NCBI GenBank assembly: GCA_020057805.1
Contig: JAGVFD010000002.1
Location: forward strand, 1-10,918
Reading direction: 5' to 3'
Source: Sideroxydans sp.
GTDB taxonomy: Bacteria > Pseudomonadota > Gammaproteobacteria > Burkholderiales > Gallionellaceae
Length of the DNA: 10,918 bases
In this document: positions 4,706-10,918 of the stretch, one piece after another
Layout of the letters: the number at the start of each line of letters is the position of its first letter
Position numbering within the stretch: position 1 is the stretch's first letter
Position numbers and translations under genes: made by a program
Notes under the pieces: model-generated
The model's database searches: none
Told to the model about the DNA's origin: nothing
Seen by the model: the letters and a program-made list of their open reading frames with translations, nothing else

Positions 4706-5022
4706 TTGGGCGTATCCTCCATGCTCCATTTCAACTCGAATGGCACTTCAAGGCACAACCCGCCCAACAGCGCAGGCGCAATCTGCTTAATCGTCTGCAT
4801 CACATTGCTCGGACTGCTACCTTCTGCCGCAAGCCATGGCACGGTCGAGGTGGCATACCAATCCCCGTTGTCGTATTGACCAACAGACACATGGATCACT
4901 TCTGCTTTAATTGCTTTTAACAATGGACTTACCCTTACTTGATGTAGTGAACTGAATGCGCAACAGACTTCTCTTTCTTGCGATGCTGGATGGAATCGCG
5001 ACGGCGCTCGCCTCGTGTTCAT
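4702..5022 (-). CDS. Small unknown protein between traI and traW
   Basis: I do not recognise this protein. From the ATG at 5022 it has 106 residues, but the first third overlaps the basic tail of traI in another frame and is rich in Arg, Ser and His, unlike a folded domain. The part free of traI (about 73 residues) looks real: AEVIHVSVGQYDNGDWYATS, PWLAAEGSS, a helix-like NVMQTIKQIAPALLGG, and FELKWSMEDTPK. A TTG at 4923, preceded by AAGGG, would give only a 17-base overlap with traI and may be the true start. The stop overlaps the traW start as ATGA, which fits a co-translated operon member. No signal peptide is visible, so it is probably cytoplasmic. The start is uncertain. Confidence 0.6.
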   Translation of the reverse strand: MNTRRAPSRFHPASQEREVCCAFSSLHQVRVSPLLKAIKAEVIHVSVGQYDNGDWYATSTVPWLAAEGSSPSNVMQTIKQIAPALLGGLCLEVPFELKWSMEDTPK

Positions 5023-7027
5023 CGGTTTTCTTTTTCTTTGAGGATCGTTTCCGTGATTTCTTGGCAGTCGGTGATGGCTCATACTTTTCGGTGAGCTGAA
5101 AGACTTCCTCAAAGCTGGATGGATGGACTGAGGCGGTGGCCACAGCATCAGTCTTGGTGGGCTCATCTACTTTTGGCAGAGCAGGAGCGGGAGAAGTTCT
5201 ATCGGCGGTCGATCCGAACAGATGCCCGACAACGGCACTCAAGCGGATTGACTTCGCTACGCCTCCCGAGAAAACAGCATCACCGGCCTGTGCGAGTTCG
5301 CTGGCGGGAATCAGCCAGCCCAATTCGGATAGCTCGACCAGGATCTGTTTGGGCGTGAATCCGTAACTGGCGAACGCATCAGGCCACTTGAGATAAACAC
5401 TTCCATCGGCATGCTTTACGCCTAGTACCTCAAAAGATTTCTTTCCACTCTTGAAGTCGCCCACCAACACACGAAGTAACTCCCCCATCGCTCCATCCAA
5501 CTCGTTCAAAGCAAGTGGCTCTTGAGGGGGAGGTACAACGAGAGGAGGGGGCGTTTCCTCGGGAGGCACACTGTCGGATTGTGTTTGAGCCTCTACAGGC
5601 TCACTCATCGGCAGACGTTCTACAGATGCGCTAGAGTTGCTTTGTGGTGGAATAGTCTCTGCGGTTGGAATTTCCACACGCTCTACAGGTGCGCTGTAGT
5701 CATCCTGAGAATTCAGCGGCAATTCAGCCTGAATATCCACGCGCTCTGTGGTGGTGCTGGCGGAGTCCTTGATTCCCGTCTTGCTTGAGTGGATTTTTCC
5801 CGAGATTGGCGCAATCGGCATCGAACTGATCAATGCTTGGTCGCGCAGACGAATCGCTTTCATCCGCATGTTGGGGATCTTTTCGGTGATTACGTCGGGG
5901 GCAATGTAGTAGAACGGGTCGCCATCACCGTCGCGCATGAAAGCGATCTCGCGCTCAACCATCATGTCCAGGATGCCGTCAGCCGTCTTTGGCAGACCGG
6001 GTATGTCTTCATCCTTGGTGCGGCGCGCGATCTCATCACCAGCCATCGGCCAGACCAGATAAGTCGTACCTTCAAGATTCCACACGCGAGCTGATGGTTC
6101 GTTGATACGCCAGATGCCTTCCTGTACCAACCGCCGCATGATGTCGGTCAGATACCGCTCAACAGGCACGCCGATCTCGTAACCAGCCATGGCCACACCC
6201 ATGCTCTTCAAGTCGCGCTCAACGCTTAACTGGTCGGCCTTCACCACAAAGTTGTGGATCTGGTTGGTCGAGCCGGGATTGTTGTTGAGGGATTCGGTCA
6301 GCCAAATCACCGCATCCGTTCCGCCGTCGCTGATCCAGTCGAGCGTGTCCTCTTTAATAACCGAATTGATGAGCGTGCTAGAAACGTTGGTGTGCTTCTT
6401 TCCGCGTCCCTCTTGCCAATGCAGAAAGTAGTTGTCGATCTTGTGACTGTTCGCCCATTCGTACAATCCTTGGTTGTATGGTCGCCACTTCAACTCATTC
6501 GAACGGTCGGAAACGGAAATATCGGTTACTACTTTGCCGAGGTCGTGACAGATGCCAGCGAGGAACACGGTCAGCTTCCAGCGTGGTTCTATGACGCGAC
6601 GCTGTTGAGGTGTCACAACGCCACGGATGAGCTTGCCTTCAGTCTGCTGTAGTGCCCACAACCCAACTTCAAGTGAATGCCTCAACATACCGCCAGCGCC
6701 ACGATGATGGTGAGCTTGTGAGGCGGGCAGCAATTGCACTAGCGCAGCCAGACGCATCATCGCGGGCGTGTAGTGTTCATCGAGCAGCGCTTCATTGGCG
6801 ATGATCTGACGGATACCGTCCACCAACTCCTTTTGAGTGGCCAGCAACGTGGATGGCGGGTAGATGGGCAGCCCCTCCATGAATGGCGGGTAGCGCGGTA
6901 TGTCGCGCAGATGTTCGAGCGAGGTCGCTTCCTTAGCGGAGGCGAACAGAGCCGTGGGAGATGTGCTAACCAGCGTCTTCGGCAGCATGCCGAACTTCAC
7001 CAATAGGCGATCAACAAGCGTAGGCAT
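4907..7027 (-). CDS. traI: TraI, MOBH-family conjugative relaxase
   Basis: 706 residues. The N-terminal TraI_2-type domain carries HHRGAGGMLRHSLEV (residues 107-121) and AGICHDLGK (HD at 161-162), the histidine/HD metal-binding signature of MOBH relaxases, plus a His at 212 (GKKHTN). A second conserved region at about 507-575 (LNELDGAMGELLRVLV through KQILVELSELGWLI) matches the C-terminal TraI_2_C domain. Between them is a Pro/Ser/Glu-rich linker with a 21-residue degenerate repeat. The tail has a basic patch (KKSRKRSSKKKK, about 656-667), possibly for DNA contact. The enzyme would nick at the transfer origin and lead the strand into the recipient. Its ATG overlaps the peptidase stop as TGATG and has no clear ribosome site of its own, suggesting translational coupling. 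Lying between the peptidase and traW is an unusual position for the relaxase gene. Confidence 0.92.
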   Translation of the reverse strand: MPTLVDRLLVKFGMLPKTLVSTSPTALFASAKEATSLEHLRDIPRYPPFMEGLPIYPPSTLLATQKELVDGIRQIIANEALLDEHYTPAMMRLAALVQLLPASQAHHHRGAGGMLRHSLEVGLWALQQTEGKLIRGVVTPQQRRVIEPRWKLTVFLAGICHDLGKVVTDISVSDRSNELKWRPYNQGLYEWANSHKIDNYFLHWQEGRGKKHTNVSSTLINSVIKEDTLDWISDGGTDAVIWLTESLNNNPGSTNQIHNFVVKADQLSVERDLKSMGVAMAGYEIGVPVERYLTDIMRRLVQEGIWRINEPSARVWNLEGTTYLVWPMAGDEIARRTKDEDIPGLPKTADGILDMMVEREIAFMRDGDGDPFYYIAPDVITEKIPNMRMKAIRLRDQALISSMPIAPISGKIHSSKTGIKDSASTTTERVDIQAELPLNSQDDYSAPVERVEIPTAETIPPQSNSSASVERLPMSEPVEAQTQSDSVPPEETPPPLVVPPPQEPLALNELDGAMGELLRVLVGDFKSGKKSFEVLGVKHADGSVYLKWPDAFASYGFTPKQILVELSELGWLIPASELAQAGDAVFSGGVAKSIRLSAVVGHLFGSTADRTSPAPALPKVDEPTKTDAVATASVHPSSFEEVFQLTEKYEPSPTAKKSRKRSSKKKKTDEHEASAVAIPSSIARKRSLLRIQFTTSSKGKSIVKSN

Positions 7028-7572: not shown

Positions 7573-7609
7573 CTGCGCAACTTTGCCGTAGCGAGTAGAA
7601 AAAATCCCA

Positions 7610-7639
7610 CCGATAGATTGCAAATTTGCAGGCTATCGG
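7610..7639. promoter_or_regulatory. 30-bp interrupted palindrome upstream of the transfer operon
   Basis: A perfect 12-bp palindrome TGCAAATTTGCA (7619-7630) is flanked symmetrically by CCGATAG (7610-7616) and its reverse complement CTATCGG (7633-7639), with 2-base gaps (AT and GG) on each side. It lies 38 bases upstream of the peptidase ATG, so it could be an operator for a dimeric regulator of the transfer operon. Read on the minus strand, it could also form a long hairpin followed five bases later by six Ts, so a terminator or attenuator is possible. The symmetry is direct observation; the function is inference. Confidence 0.6.
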
Positions 7640-7739
7640 AGCGGTATCACTGAAGGTGGCTCGCTCATCCTTTGGGCTAGATGTGCTGTAGTTGCTCTGT
7701 AGTGCGTGTGGAAATTATTCAGCGAATTGATTGGTGAAT

Positions 7740-7758
7740 AATCACTGTGGTAGTGATT
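7740..7758. promoter_or_regulatory. Inverted repeat overlapping the right-facing -35 box
   Basis: AATCACT (7740-7746), a 5-base spacer GTGGT, and AGTGATT (7752-7758) form a perfect 7-bp inverted repeat. Its right end shares two bases with the TTGACA at 7757-7762. A repressor bound here would block that promoter, so it is a plausible operator for the accessory block. Confidence 0.45.
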
Positions 7759-7785
7759 GACAGCGAATAAGTGACGCGCTATTTT
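7757..7785 (+). promoter_or_regulatory. Candidate sigma70 promoter for the accessory block
   Basis: TTGACA at 7757-7762 is a perfect -35 match, followed by exactly 17 bases and TATTTT at 7780-7785 as a -10 box (4 of 6 consensus). Transcription would start near 7792 and give a leader of about 165 bases before the first ATG at 7957, including leader copy 1. No other right-facing promoter of similar quality was seen in 7573-7956. Confidence 0.55.
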
Positions 7786-7883
7786 GATCGCATCTACTTC
7801 GCAGCTTATTGCTCGAACTGATATTGGTGGCTGGCCAATTGAAACAAACAGAAGGCGAGTAATCGTCAAGTTGTAAATCACCC

Positions 7884-7956
7884 ACCCAAGCGGGGACATC
7901 GTTCCCCATTGGGGCATGGTGTCCCCTTTTTTGTTTCAAACAATAAGGAGATCACC
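7884..7956 (+). promoter_or_regulatory. Structured 5' leader, copy 1 of 4
   Basis: Order of tracts: ACCC (7884-7887), GGGG (7892-7895), CCCC (7904-7907), GGGG (7911-7914), CCCC (7923-7926), AGGAG (7946-7950), ATG at 7957. GGGGACATC pairs with GGTGTCCCC (7918-7926; 9 bp with one G-U), with CCCC-ATT-GGGG nested inside. Alternatively CATGGTG (7915-7921) pairs perfectly with CACCATG (7953-7959), which contains the start codon, with further GA/TC and GG/CC pairs reaching the ribosome site. The two folds share an arm and exclude each other. Function is inferred from structure and from the other three copies. Confidence 0.75.
7892..7932 (+). terminator. Possible intrinsic terminator/attenuator within leader copy 1
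   Basis: The 9-bp GC-rich stem of leader copy 1 (7892-7900 with 7918-7926) is followed directly by six Ts (7927-7932), the layout of an intrinsic terminator. Copies 2 to 4 lack an uninterrupted T-run, so only this first copy is a good candidate. It would attenuate transcription entering the accessory block. Confidence 0.35.
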
Positions 7957-8043
7957 ATGAGTTTAGTCATCATTGCTTGCTGCGTTACTGGTTATGCAAT
8001 CAGCCGTCCAGTGGTATGGACAGTGCGGTCGCTTGGTTTCTAA
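7957..8043 (+). CDS. 28-residue membrane micropeptide
   Basis: ATG at 7957 follows a strong ribosome site (AAGGAG, 6 bases before ATG) at the end of leader copy 1 and runs 28 codons to TAA at 8041-8043. The peptide begins MSLVIIACCVTGYAIS and continues RPVVWTVRSLGF: a short hydrophobic segment followed by Trp/Arg residues, as in single-pass membrane micropeptides. Its plan resembles the N-terminus of the 112-residue protein at 10300 (MGIAILVIFSIGLYQLGKWV), which has the same leader. I do not recognise a family. It could be a real small protein, a leader peptide linked to the RNA element, or a truncated remnant of a longer membrane protein. Confidence 0.6.
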   Translation: MSLVIIACCVTGYAISRPVVWTVRSLGF

Positions 8044-8054
8044 TCCAGAAATTC

Positions 8055-8114
8055 ACCCATCGGGGGCACTCCCCGCTGGGGTTGTGTCCCCTTGATTCTT
8101 TAAGGAGACACAGA
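8055..8114 (+). promoter_or_regulatory. Structured 5' leader, copy 2 of 4
   Basis: Tracts: ACCC (8055-8058), GGGGG (8062-8066), CCCC (8071-8074), GGGG (8078-8081), CCCC (8088-8091), AAGGAG (8102-8107), ATG at 8115. GGGGGCAC minus its fifth G plus wobble pairs with GTGTCCCC (8084-8091) as an 8-bp stem with one G-U. The competing fold pairs TGTGTC (8083-8088) with GACACA (8107-8112), just after the ribosome site, then CC with GG inside it. The element decides the start of the exonuclease gene: the ATG at 8115, not the upstream in-frame ATG at 7977. Confidence 0.75.
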
Positions 8115-9398
8115 ATGAAACGCTTTGTACGCAATCTACCAATCAAGGACTACCACGCTGGGGAAGAGATTTCTCACAGTGGCATCGTCAAGCTGCTCAA
8201 GTCACCAGAGCACTATCTGCAATATAAAAGTGGCGAAGACGAACCAACACCAGCGATGGAGTTCGGTTCGGCTTTCCACTCTTTCATCCTGGAGCCTGAG
8301 TTATTTGCAGCGGTGTATTCCGTTGTAGATGAAGCTGCGCTTACTGGAACACTTGCCACACTGGACGACTACAAGACTGCGGCGACGCAGTTGGGCGTTA
8401 AGTTCGAGGCGCTGAATAAGGATGAGTTGAAGCTGGCCATCAAGGCGGCTGATACAAATTTCACTGTTCGATTCAAAGATGATGTTCAAGCAGATATTGC
8501 CTCATTTTCAGCTGAAAGACTGGCTGGAAGTTTGGCTACGCTTGATGAACTCAAGCAAGCTGCCGAATCACTTGGAATCGCAATCGGCAAAATGAAGAAG
8601 GATGAGCTGAAGGAGGCTATCAAGGCTTTCGACGGCGAATCAAAATTCAAATTCCGCGAAGATGTTCAAGCTGAAATTGCTGTGCTGACTGCTGATAAGT
8701 TGGTTGGAACACTTGCCACACTGGACGACTACAAAGCTGCGGCGACGCAGTTGGGTGTTAAGTTCGAGGCACTGAATAAGGATGAATTTAAGCTGGCCAT
8801 CAAGGCGGCTGATACTGAGTCTGTGTTCAAGTTCCGTGAAGATGAATACAGCCGCTTGTACGGGGCCAAAATCATTCTCAAACAAGACCAAATGGATGCG
8901 CTGACCGCTATGCGGAAAAGCGTTTTCAAGCACGCTGGCGCGGCGGGAATGCTAGTTACTGGCGAATCCGAAACGTCGCTATTCTGGACGGACGAGATCA
9001 CCGGCTTGAAGTGCAGAGTTCGCCCAGACCACTGGTTTGAAGGCGGAATGGCAGACCTAAAAAGCTGCGTATCTGCGAACAAGGCCGATTTTGCGAAAGC
9101 AGTAGCCAACCTCGGGTATGACATTGAGGCTGCGTTCTATATCGACGGCATGAAGGCGGTAACCGGAAAATCGGTGGACTTCTTTTTCATCGCGGTAGAG
9201 AAGACAGCGCCGTACACGACTGCCTGTTACAAGGCCAGTCAAGAGATGATCGAAGTGGGGCGTGCCAAGTATCGCGGTGCGCTTGAATTGCTGAAATGGT
9301 GTCAGGAGAACAATCAGTATCCTGGCTATCAACCGAATGGCGAGATCGAAACAATTGATCTCCCACGTTGGGCAGCGAACTTCGAGCTGGAGGCATAA
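8115..9398 (+). CDS. RecE-like PD-(D/E)XK exonuclease with three tandem inserted domains
   Basis: 427 residues from the ATG at 8115, chosen because a leader and AAGGAG precede it. The N-terminus (DYHAGEEISHSGIVKLLKSP, PTPAMEFGSAFHSFILEPE) and the core (GLKCRVRPDHW, GMADLKSC, GYDIEAAFYIDGM) match the RecE C-terminal / DUF3799 nuclease family. Likely catalytic residues are His54, Asp305, Asp314 and Lys316. The usual Gln of the YxxQAAxY motif is Glu338 here. Residues 78-257 hold three tandem 60-residue repeats (each beginning G-T/S-LATLD) resembling HeH/SAP-type helix-extended DNA-binding modules, inserted between the His motif and the core. Such enzymes degrade one strand to prepare DNA for annealing-based recombination. 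No annealing protein (RecT or Bet) is seen in this window. Confidence 0.82.
   Translation: MKRFVRNLPIKDYHAGEEISHSGIVKLLKSPEHYLQYKSGEDEPTPAMEFGSAFHSFILEPELFAAVYSVVDEAALTGTLATLDDYKTAATQLGVKFEALNKDELKLAIKAADTNFTVRFKDDVQADIASFSAERLAGSLATLDELKQAAESLGIAIGKMKKDELKEAIKAFDGESKFKFREDVQAEIAVLTADKLVGTLATLDDYKAAATQLGVKFEALNKDEFKLAIKAADTESVFKFREDEYSRLYGAKIILKQDQMDALTAMRKSVFKHAGAAGMLVTGESETSLFWTDEITGLKCRVRPDHWFEGGMADLKSCVSANKADFAKAVANLGYDIEAAFYIDGMKAVTGKSVDFFFIAVEKTAPYTTACYKASQEMIEVGRAKYRGALELLKWCQENNQYPGYQPNGEIETIDLPRWAANFELEA
8345..8455 (+). repeat. Long direct repeat, copy A (inside the exonuclease gene)
   Basis: These 111 bases match 8705-8815 with six differences by my count, exactly 360 bases apart. 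They encode the start of the first 60-residue module (GTLATLDDYKTAATQLGVKF and onwards). The middle module between them is much more diverged in DNA. Confidence 0.9.
8705..8815 (+). repeat. Long direct repeat, copy B (inside the exonuclease gene)
   Basis: Second copy of the 111-base direct repeat, encoding the start of the third 60-residue module. The high identity to 8345-8455 points to recent duplication or gene conversion between the outer modules. Confidence 0.9.
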
Positions 9399-9842
9399 AT
9401 GATCGATGCAACTCTGATTCCATTTTTGCCGAAGTTCCAGTGCTTTCAAATTGCCGAATGTCTGCAAGGTGAGGAACGCGAGTTCTTTGCCAAAAAGATT
9501 GAGGAATTGCGAAGCGTCATCACTACGATGCCGGTCACCTATCAGCAAGACGAATTAGGTGATCAAGCAATCGTTCATCTGCATTATTTTTACGGCAACT
9601 GTCATTGTTTCATCACTGAGAAGGATATGGAAGGTGATGGCACCATTCAAGCTTACGGCATGGCTGATTTGGGCTTCGGGCCCGAGTCGGGGTACATCAG
9701 CATTGAAGAGTTAGTTCAGTCGGACATTTTGATTGAGCTGGATCTTCACTGGAAACCAATAACGCGTGCCGAAGTAATGACTAAAACCCTATCGGGGACT
9801 CACCTCCCCTCGGGGCATGGTGCGTCTCCGGTTTTACTTTAA
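9399..9842 (+). CDS. DUF2958-like protein
   Basis: 147 residues. The region IQAYGMADLGFGPESGYISIEELV followed by IELDLHWKPI matches the DUF2958 core (typically FGLCDLG.G.PELG.VSL.EL ... ERDL.FK), a protein of unknown function common on conjugative elements. The N-terminal 50 residues (FLPKFQCFQIAECL, EEREFFAKKIEELR) are charged and probably helical. The ATG directly follows the exonuclease stop (TAAATG) with GGAGG five bases upstream, so the two genes are co-translated without a leader between them. The last 20 or so residues (KTLSGTHLPSGHGASPVLL) are encoded by leader copy 3 and probably are not part of the domain; the ancestral stop seems to have been lost. Confidence 0.68.
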   Translation: MIDATLIPFLPKFQCFQIAECLQGEEREFFAKKIEELRSVITTMPVTYQQDELGDQAIVHLHYFYGNCHCFITEKDMEGDGTIQAYGMADLGFGPESGYISIEELVQSDILIELDLHWKPITRAEVMTKTLSGTHLPSGHGASPVLL

Positions 9843-9852
9843 GGAGAGCATC
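9786..9852 (+). promoter_or_regulatory. Structured 5' leader, copy 3 of 4
   Basis: Tracts: ACCC (9786-9789), GGGG (9794-9797), CCCC (9806-9809), GGGG (9812-9815), TCTCC (9825-9829), AAGGAG (9841-9846), ATG at 9853. CGGGGACTCACC pairs with GGTGCGTCTCCG (9819-9830; one mismatch, one G-U). In the alternative fold CATGGTGC (9816-9823) pairs with GCATCATG (9848-9855), and TCTCC (9825-9829) pairs with GGAGA (9843-9847), with one bulged G. That buries both ribosome site and start codon. The final arm differs from the other copies, and the ribosome-site region has changed with it. The element overlaps the end of the preceding gene. Confidence 0.78.
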
Positions 9853-10218
9853 ATGGCTGGAAGGCTTTATGACGTACAACCCAGTGACCGTGAACCAGTG
9901 AATTACACACACTTCTCGGAGTGGTTTGCCTCCGATCTTGCAGAAGATGCGAGTGAAGAGGACAAGCTCAAAGCGTTCGATGACTCATTTTTGAGTTCAA
10001 AAGTCACTGAACTTGAGAGTGTGTTGGCTTCATGGGAACAAACTGTTGGCGTTCCCATGTTAAGTCTGGAAGGGTTTAACAACCTTGATCATATGGTTCG
10101 CACAGTAGGCTGGGATAACACCATCAACTTGGTCATCTACGCAGTTCTTTGCGCAGGTTTCGATGTCTATGTCGGCAGCGACTTCATCGAGATATACGAC
10201 CGGACTGATTGGGAGTAA
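9853..10218 (+). CDS. Unknown acidic protein, 121 residues
   Basis: I do not recognise a family. The ATG at 9853 follows AAGGAG at the end of leader copy 3; an in-frame ATG at 9817 lies inside the leader and was rejected. The protein begins MAGRLYDVQPSDREPVNYTH and is rich in Asp and Glu (ASDLAEDASEEDKLKAFDD). It has a more hydrophobic C-terminal third (TINLVIYAVLCAGFDVYVG) and ends FIEIYDRTDWE. No signal peptide or clear membrane helix is seen, so it is probably cytoplasmic. Acidic small proteins on mobile elements sometimes mimic DNA or block host defences, but nothing in this sequence shows that here. Confidence 0.72.
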   Translation: MAGRLYDVQPSDREPVNYTHFSEWFASDLAEDASEEDKLKAFDDSFLSSKVTELESVLASWEQTVGVPMLSLEGFNNLDHMVRTVGWDNTINLVIYAVLCAGFDVYVGSDFIEIYDRTDWE

Positions 10219-10237
10219 CCGATTCACCGTAGTACCA

Positions 10238-10299
10238 ACCCAATGGGGATACATTCCCCTCGGGGTTTGTGTCCTCTTATCAACTTTAAGGAGACACAA
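10238..10299 (+). promoter_or_regulatory. Structured 5' leader, copy 4 of 4
   Basis: Tracts: ACCC (10238-10241), GGGG (10245-10248), CCCC (10256-10259), GGGG (10262-10265), TCCTC (10272-10276), AAGGAG (10288-10293), ATG at 10300. GGGGATACA pairs with TGTGTCCTC (10268-10276) through 9 pairs, two of them G-U. The competing pairing is TTTGTGTC (10266-10273) with GACACAAA (10293-10300), 8 perfect pairs reaching the A of the start codon. It lies 19 bases after the preceding stop. Confidence 0.76.
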
Positions 10300-10638
10300 A
10301 TGGGAATCGCAATCTTGGTAATTTTTTCAATCGGCCTGTATCAGCTGGGCAAATGGGTATGGGGCAGATTCATCAACAAGCCACGTGCCGTCGTAGCGAC
10401 AGAAGCAACTCAACAAGCTTTGCCGGATGTCACGACAGAGCAAAATTGGGGTGGCTATGAAGCTCCAACATTCGTTCGACGCGGGATGCCTTTTCCTGTG
10501 CTGACCGCGAAGGTGAAAACCAAGCGTGTGCGTAAGCAGAAAGTTGCTGCGCTCAACCCTGAAGAGGATTCATTTCCGATGGGCGATTGGACACTCTTTG
10601 CAAAACACGATGGAGGAGAAAACCATGCGACGCACTGA
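10300..10638 (+). CDS. Unknown single-pass membrane protein, 112 residues
   Basis: The ATG at 10300 follows AAGGAG of leader copy 4; the in-frame ATG at 10243 lies inside the leader and was rejected. An N-terminal membrane helix (MGIAILVIFSIGLYQLGKWV) is followed by basic residues (GRFINKPR), suggesting a cytoplasmic C-terminal part. The soluble part has a proline-containing stretch (PTFVRRGMPFPVL), a very basic segment (KVKTKRVRKQK) and an acidic end. I recognise no family. The stop lies 14 bases past the next ATG, so the next gene is probably co-translated. Confidence 0.72.
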   Translation: MGIAILVIFSIGLYQLGKWVWGRFINKPRAVVATEATQQALPDVTTEQNWGGYEAPTFVRRGMPFPVLTAKVKTKRVRKQKVAALNPEEDSFPMGDWTLFAKHDGGENHATH

Positions 10639-10918
10639 TCGGACTGCGCGACGTATTAGGCCGATTGAGCGCATACGCGCAAAAACAATGAGCCTTGCTT
10701 TGAAAGCATTCCAAGTTGAACCATCGCTTGGAAAATGTAACGCAAGAACATTGCTCGCTGAAATCTTCGACTATCTGAAGGCTGGAATGGATGAAGAAAA
10801 GATTGCCCGCGTGGTCGGCCTGGCATCCACCGTCCTGTTCGACAAGACCAAGCCGGACAACCCGATCAACCGTCGCATCAGCATCGTCGTCCTGAGCCGA
10901 GAGGCGGAAGCCATCCAG
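10625..10918 (+). CDS. Small unknown protein fused in frame to a MotB-like C-terminus (cut by window end)
   Basis: The ATG at 10625 has an excellent ribosome site (GGAGGAG at 10612-10618) and overlaps the previous gene by 14 bases. 98 codons are visible with no stop. Residues 1-52 form a basic N-terminus (RRTDRTARRIRPIERIRAK) and a helix-like stretch (ARTLLAEIFDYLKAG), in a style common in small mobile-element proteins and not recognised. From about residue 53, GMDEEKIARVVGLASTVLFD and NPINRRISIVVL match the OmpA-like C-terminus of flagellar MotB. By my count about 24 of the first 59 codons end in G or C, against about 33 of the last 37. This looks like two unrelated pieces joined. Confidence 0.65.
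   Translation, partial: MRRTDRTARRIRPIERIRAKTMSLALKAFQVEPSLGKCNARTLLAEIFDYLKAGMDEEKIARVVGLASTVLFDKTKPDNPINRRISIVVLSREAEAIQ
10781..10918 (+). other. MotB C-terminal fragment at the window end
   Basis: The translated stretch around RVVGLASTVLFDK and NPINRRISIVVL is the end of the peptidoglycan-binding domain of MotB, the stator protein of the flagellar motor. The first two thirds of MotB are absent. Codon use turns GC-rich within a few codons of 10808. The exact joint cannot be fixed, because GMDEEKI could belong to either side. Confidence 0.75.

Follow-up and report, generated by a model that had tools for sequence, protein, structure and literature searches.

In translational riboswitch platforms and attenuators, an anti-Shine–Dalgarno (anti-SD) arm pairs exclusively with either the Shine–Dalgarno sequence (SD) or an anti-anti-SD arm. 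The start site of the phage Mu mom leader lies in a stem that is opened by Com, and hok mRNA relies on metastable folding of an inhibitory leader. DUF3085 RNA (RF02959) reportedly originates in a 2017 survey. The cited section of PMC2864571 counts radC RNA (RF01754) among candidate structured RNAs from Proteobacteria, and that of PMC11541004 places the Frpo/ssi single-strand promoters, as hairpins, before establishment genes in the leading regions of conjugative elements. Here, we analyzed a 10,918-nt stretch (the window) of a Sideroxydans sp. metagenome-assembled genome (MAG; GCA_020057805.1, contig JAGVFD010000002.1), which is part of a conjugative element. Its plus-strand gene series starts at position 7957, and four of the genes carry a leader of 63–76 nt. 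Judged from sequence, the genes behind such leaders probably share a previously undescribed translational switch.

The leader is a chain of six arms (Z, A, B, C, D, and S), where A is the first G-rich arm and S is the ribosome site with the start codon. The four copies on the plus strand of the window lie at 7884..7959, 8055..8117, 9786..9855, and 10238..10302. They score 67.4, 53.3, 55.5, and 46.3 bits, respectively, with our search model R1, and all four are among its 23 seeds. In each of them, arm D has alternative partners, S or A. The D:S pairs named in the original prediction were present throughout: CATGGTG (7915–7921) with CACCATG (7953–7959) in leader 1, TGTGTC (8083–8088) with GACACA (8107–8112) in leader 2, CATGGTGC (9816–9823) with GCATCATG (9848–9855) plus TCTCC with GGAGA in leader 3, and TTTGTGTC (10266–10273) with GACACAAA (10293–10300) in leader 4. 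The predicted closed fold puts the SD and the start codon in a stem, and the fold with A:D frees the SD. The two folds would exclude each other, D:S hiding the ribosome site and A:D exposing it. A third possible pairing of D was seen at 7911–7925, 8078–8090, and 9812–9828, where C:D could form a short terminator-like hairpin.

Both pairings were examined by an alignment-free swap test, which compares the duplex energy of an arm with its own partner to that obtained after exchanging partners between copies; A:S served as the control. For the 10 copies of the MAG, D:S yielded −14.74 kcal/mol with the own partner and −11.97 kcal/mol after swapping (21 of 20,000 permutations reached the own mean), and A:D yielded −15.90 vs −13.03 kcal/mol (2 of 20,000). 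The own partner gave no advantage to A:S in these copies. R1 contains neither pairing. Among the best 150 of its 175 matches, 86 nonredundant copies (less than 85% alike) gave −14.65 vs −10.77 kcal/mol for D:S (permutation sd 0.245) and −15.97 vs −11.48 kcal/mol for A:D (sd 0.252), with a control of −5.36 vs −5.57 kcal/mol. The R1 seeds comprised the 10 MAG copies and 13 copies picked by eye from pattern matches on four plasmids. Since eye-picked seeds could favor well-paired copies, the test was repeated without all 23. The remaining 70 copies showed −14.86 vs −10.83 kcal/mol for D:S and −16.11 vs −11.54 kcal/mol for A:D (control, −5.55 vs −5.75 kcal/mol). For plasmids pRA1 and R27, we retained the 28 leaders among 33 coding-strand matches whose ATG is the annotated start, and dropped one AT-rich match (L096 36368). 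The 27 leaders used gave −14.65 vs −9.12 for D:S and −16.71 vs −10.52 for A:D, and the control was flat. Complementarity of D and S is hence kept beyond chance despite differing sequences, and the folds and swap tests bore out the claim that the same arm also pairs with the first GGGG arm.

Column covariation of D:S (0.253) exceeded the shuffled value (0.143) and those of slid versions (at most 0.106). The corresponding score for A:D weighs against the two-pairing interpretation: it was 0.227 as aligned and 0.187 when shuffled, yet sliding by −1 raised it to 0.258. This column score is ambiguous, and the case for A:D therefore rests on the alignment-free test. Apart from these columns, the leader behaves as expected of an alternative anti-SD, in that co-change supports both the pairing of one arm with the SD and its exclusive alternative, the pairing with an arm further 5′. 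The leader is real, widespread, and co-varying, and its anatomy suggests that it governs whether the start codon is accessible.

The original prediction had seen the layout of a translational switch with two alternative folds. The exclusive pairings, kept by co-change, stood; the equilibrium between two states found no support. In folds computed at 37 °C for the 150 best copies, the closed fold was favored by over 2 kcal/mol in 138, the two were within 2 kcal/mol in 7, and the open fold was favored by over 2 kcal/mol in 5. One state thus dominates the finished RNA by a wide margin, and joint population of both at equilibrium was not found across this set. The default state of the leader is closed according to these models. 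Of the 10 MAG copies, only the leader of the ParB-like gene (L013 3220–3296) is predicted to hold the two folds in balance. The predicted best fold shifts from A:D to D:S once S is made. To reach the closed fold, the open one had to cross a computed barrier of 13.4 kcal/mol (median of 147 copies); a higher barrier (20.7) was computed for the step leading from hairpin I to A:D. A free CATGG toehold in D was considered and rejected, as only the first 1–3 nt of D stay unpaired when the window leaders adopt the open fold.

Conservation inside the leader is confined to the G/C arms, the SD, the start codon, and the Z flank. In both sets inspected (147 and 28 copies), a U- and A-rich, G-poor stretch 5′ of Z ends in YAACCC. 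Most positions of this flank are only 43–71% conserved, but the A preceding CCC reaches 90% and 82%. It is paired in the closed minimum in just 21 of the 125 copies that have it, leader 4 being an example. This conserved and mostly unpaired A may point to recognition, or merely to a need to remain unpaired. How far Z lies from the preceding stop codon was taken from the part of the matches entered by hand (77 leaders, two of them without an upstream gene). Two main classes emerged, −2 to 30 nt in 32 of 75 leaders and at least 94 nt in 36; another 6 had 31–60 nt, and in one case the stop codon fell inside the leader. Coupling to the upstream stop as the only input was rejected because of the 36 leaders at 94 nt or more.

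Some leaders follow structured RNA. In the window, an element that we call type III (7804..7867, plus strand) precedes leader 1, with a hairpin ATTGG..CCAAT at 7818–7839 and a hairpin with a 4-nt loop at 7854–7867. Across Gallionellaceae, the hairpins of this element are given as TGATATTGG..CCAATC and GACGC-GCAA-GCGCC, and the second changes on both sides between copies. Type III elements, with two or three hairpins, were also noted at L013 ~465–540 and ~5060–5135. The GATATTGG core occurs at most 160 nt 5′ of 17 of 185 leaders. Among 84,980 species genomes, the core of the relatives, from which the window copy differs at its ends, turned up in 28 stretches, several of which share a contig. 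A leader lies 49–69 nt downstream in 27 of them and 154 nt downstream in one, and 22 of the 28 come from Gallionellales, Gallionellaceae, Gallionella, Sideroxydans, or Nitrotoga. The type III element had no Rfam match in the window.

Comparison with Rfam 15 gave no match to the window at the gathering score; with E up to 10, the region 7600–10918 yielded only two chance-level matches, both on the opposite strand. No family for the leader itself appeared at the gathering score in 33 other sources, which did not include 13 of the loci behind the R1 matches, and open-licence papers yielded no description of it. DUF3085 RNA (at least 40.6 bits) has no match in the window and two in the 33 other sources, both adjoining leaders in one locus (L017). 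It overlaps the 5′ end of these two Azonexus plasmid leaders, its last model positions (CAACCC..CGGG) coinciding with Z and the beginning of A. As the model does not reach B, C, D, or S, it leaves the switch itself undescribed. radC RNA (at least 40 bits) was found neither in the window nor on C149, another contig of the same MAG, nor in four plasmid stretches; five matches fell in four loci with R1 leaders (two in L084, one each in L087, L088, and L091). It ends 18–63 nt 5′ of four leaders (two in L084, one each in L088 and L091), of which the one in L088 matches R1 weakly (E 0.022); in L087, ~130 nt separate it from the next leader. Unlike the leader, its structure forms a separate upstream domain. 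STAXI and HEARO RNAs were also encountered near leaders (L086 939–1093; L063 4195–4431).

The leader shares exclusive anti-SD pairing with the riboswitch platforms, but no aptamer was seen in it, it serves many genes of one element, and it is closed by a wide margin at equilibrium. It resembles mom and hok in having a start site in a stem or a metastable inhibitory leader, whereas these are single genes that lack the six-arm chain.

As regards the four leaders, the original prediction was right in substance but too narrow in scope. The family extends beyond the window. Contig C149 carries six more leaders, before ArdC-like, ParB-like, and four unnamed open reading frames (ORFs), as labeled by reading their translations. 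Relatives provided 165 matches at E up to 0.001, with a limited number of candidates scored per genome. The reference plasmids pRA1 (IncA) and R27, which we take to be IncHI1, carry the family, and plasmid F has no R1 match. Genes after leaders include those for SSB, ArdC-like protein, RecT/Bet, exonuclease, and methyltransferase. This survey covered sense-strand matches (E up to 0.1) in annotated stretches (15 on W01, 20 on W02, and 13 on W03); W04, six W02 matches at 1–34 kb, and W03 matches outside L016 fall outside it, as do three opposite-strand matches on each of pRA1 and R27. A viral origin was rejected on one stretch matching the strict leader pattern and none matching the type III core in viral_contigs, both patterns being exact and narrow. 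ProQ/FinO was dismissed as a common regulator, as it is present in only two of seven genomes or records (W03 and G292).

For the opening of the leader, we favor an input at arm Z. In the boldest reading, one RNA relay would run through establishment genes across mobile elements of the IncA, IncHI1, radC-RNA-bearing gamma-proteobacterial, and Gallionellaceae groups, with the six-arm leader as the common output and Z as the input. Within operons, the ribosome ending the upstream gene would free the next start codon and so hand translation on along the genes; at operon starts, radC, DUF3085, and type III RNAs would act as sensor halves. We put this relay forward tentatively, and as a whole it is unlikely. 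A scheme without any sensor, which we regard as clearly doubtful, would confine translation to nascent RNA: the open fold would exist once D is made, ribosomes would load as S emerges, and mRNA not occupied immediately would refold to the closed form and remain silent, giving a short burst per transcript. That D:S replaces A:D as the best fold when S is made agrees with such a burst, and the median barrier of 13.4 kcal/mol implies that the open state could last. However, the barrier of 20.7 from hairpin I to A:D suggests that the closed form may be reached directly, the Z flank and the structured upstream RNAs are left without a reason, and the earlier argument from the CATGG toehold failed. 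We also considered transcription attenuation, in which intrinsic termination would rest on A:D together with a T-run, hairpin I would serve as antiterminator, and the polymerase would be rendered resistant, in the manner of put RNA, by the radC, DUF3085, or type III RNA with which the operon begins. At least five T within 8 nt follow the A:D stem (median 10 pairs) in 111 of 150 copies, and structured RNA does lie 5′ of some leaders. Nevertheless, the T-run is absent from 20 of the 22 pRA1/R27 leaders that form A:D, which weakens a terminator as the general function. The terminator-like scan matches at 7911, 8078, and 9812 are the shorter C:D hairpins rather than A:D and show the T-run only. 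Moreover, it is in the A:D fold that the SD becomes free, and D:S, the best-supported feature by column count, would go unexplained because S is made after the terminator. Attenuation is improbable as the explanation of the family; it may have been added in some groups and is not a common feature.

The two further explanations are far weaker candidates. Single-stranded-DNA promoters of the Frpo/ssi type, with hairpins acting in the transferred strand, would suit the leading-region type of the genes after the leaders, and such regions use Frpo promoters according to the cited section of PMC11541004. The resemblance extends to hairpin elements before establishment genes. As described there, however, Frpo/ssi hairpins hold the −35 and −10 in DNA, and the leaders pair the SD and start codon, a conserved pairing that a promoter does not need. 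No promoter-like match was found inside the four window leaders, and F has Frpo yet no R1 match; we consider this origin very improbable. The original prediction listed temperature among possible drivers, and a D:S stem melting with heat would be in line with the SD and start codon lying in the stem of the predicted closed fold. A simple thermometer has no need of a second conserved arm, A, with its own co-change, and D:S duplexes averaging −14.65 kcal/mol also speak against it, which leaves a thermometer scarcely credible.

On the minus strand, the window encodes a MobH relaxase (TraI_2; 4907–7027), TraU, and an S26 signal peptidase. A promoter-like site (TTGACA-17-TATTTT, 7757..7785, plus strand; 10/12 consensus matches) lies 5′ of leader 1, but it is weak alone, as the scan found 2 such sites in the window vs 2.7 expected in shuffles. 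The plus-strand genes are a 28-aa ORF after leader 1 (7957..8043), a PD-(D/E)XK nuclease after leader 2 (8115..9398; DUF3799, exonuclease VIII-like; Pfam PF12684, E = 1.1e-42), a DUF2958-like ORF (9399..9842), and ORFs of 121 aa after leader 3 (9853..10218) and 112 aa after leader 4 (10300..10638). The 28-, 121-, and 112-aa ORFs have no family match, and NCBIfam PRK09709 matches the nuclease partially, under its curated cut-off. The nuclease gene contains 111-nt repeats (8345–8455 and 8705–8815; 95% identity, 360 nt apart) that flank a weaker third unit, corresponding to a repeated protein domain. The 3′ end of the DUF2958-like ORF overlaps leader 3. This ORF ends at a TAA adjoining the SD of the gene that follows, and a ribosome translating it would therefore traverse the leader-3 switch. 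A 20-nt inverted repeat (95% complementary) occurs at 5669–5688 and 7697–7716, 2 kb apart. The contig end (10775–10918) holds a piece like the MotB C-terminus (NCBIfam PRK09041, E 1.3e-15, under cut-off) that is unlike its neighbors and perhaps reflects an assembly join.

In large mobile elements, pRA1 and R27 among them, the leader precedes many DNA-processing genes, such as those for recombination, SSB, ArdC-like proteins, and methyltransferases. If its proposed function is true, one RNA design that is not in Rfam gates the translation of many such genes. The orphan motifs radC and DUF3085 stand directly before a concrete output module, which makes their function testable. If the relay also holds, these two Rfam orphans would gain a function, and start-codon access would be the control point of plasmid establishment.
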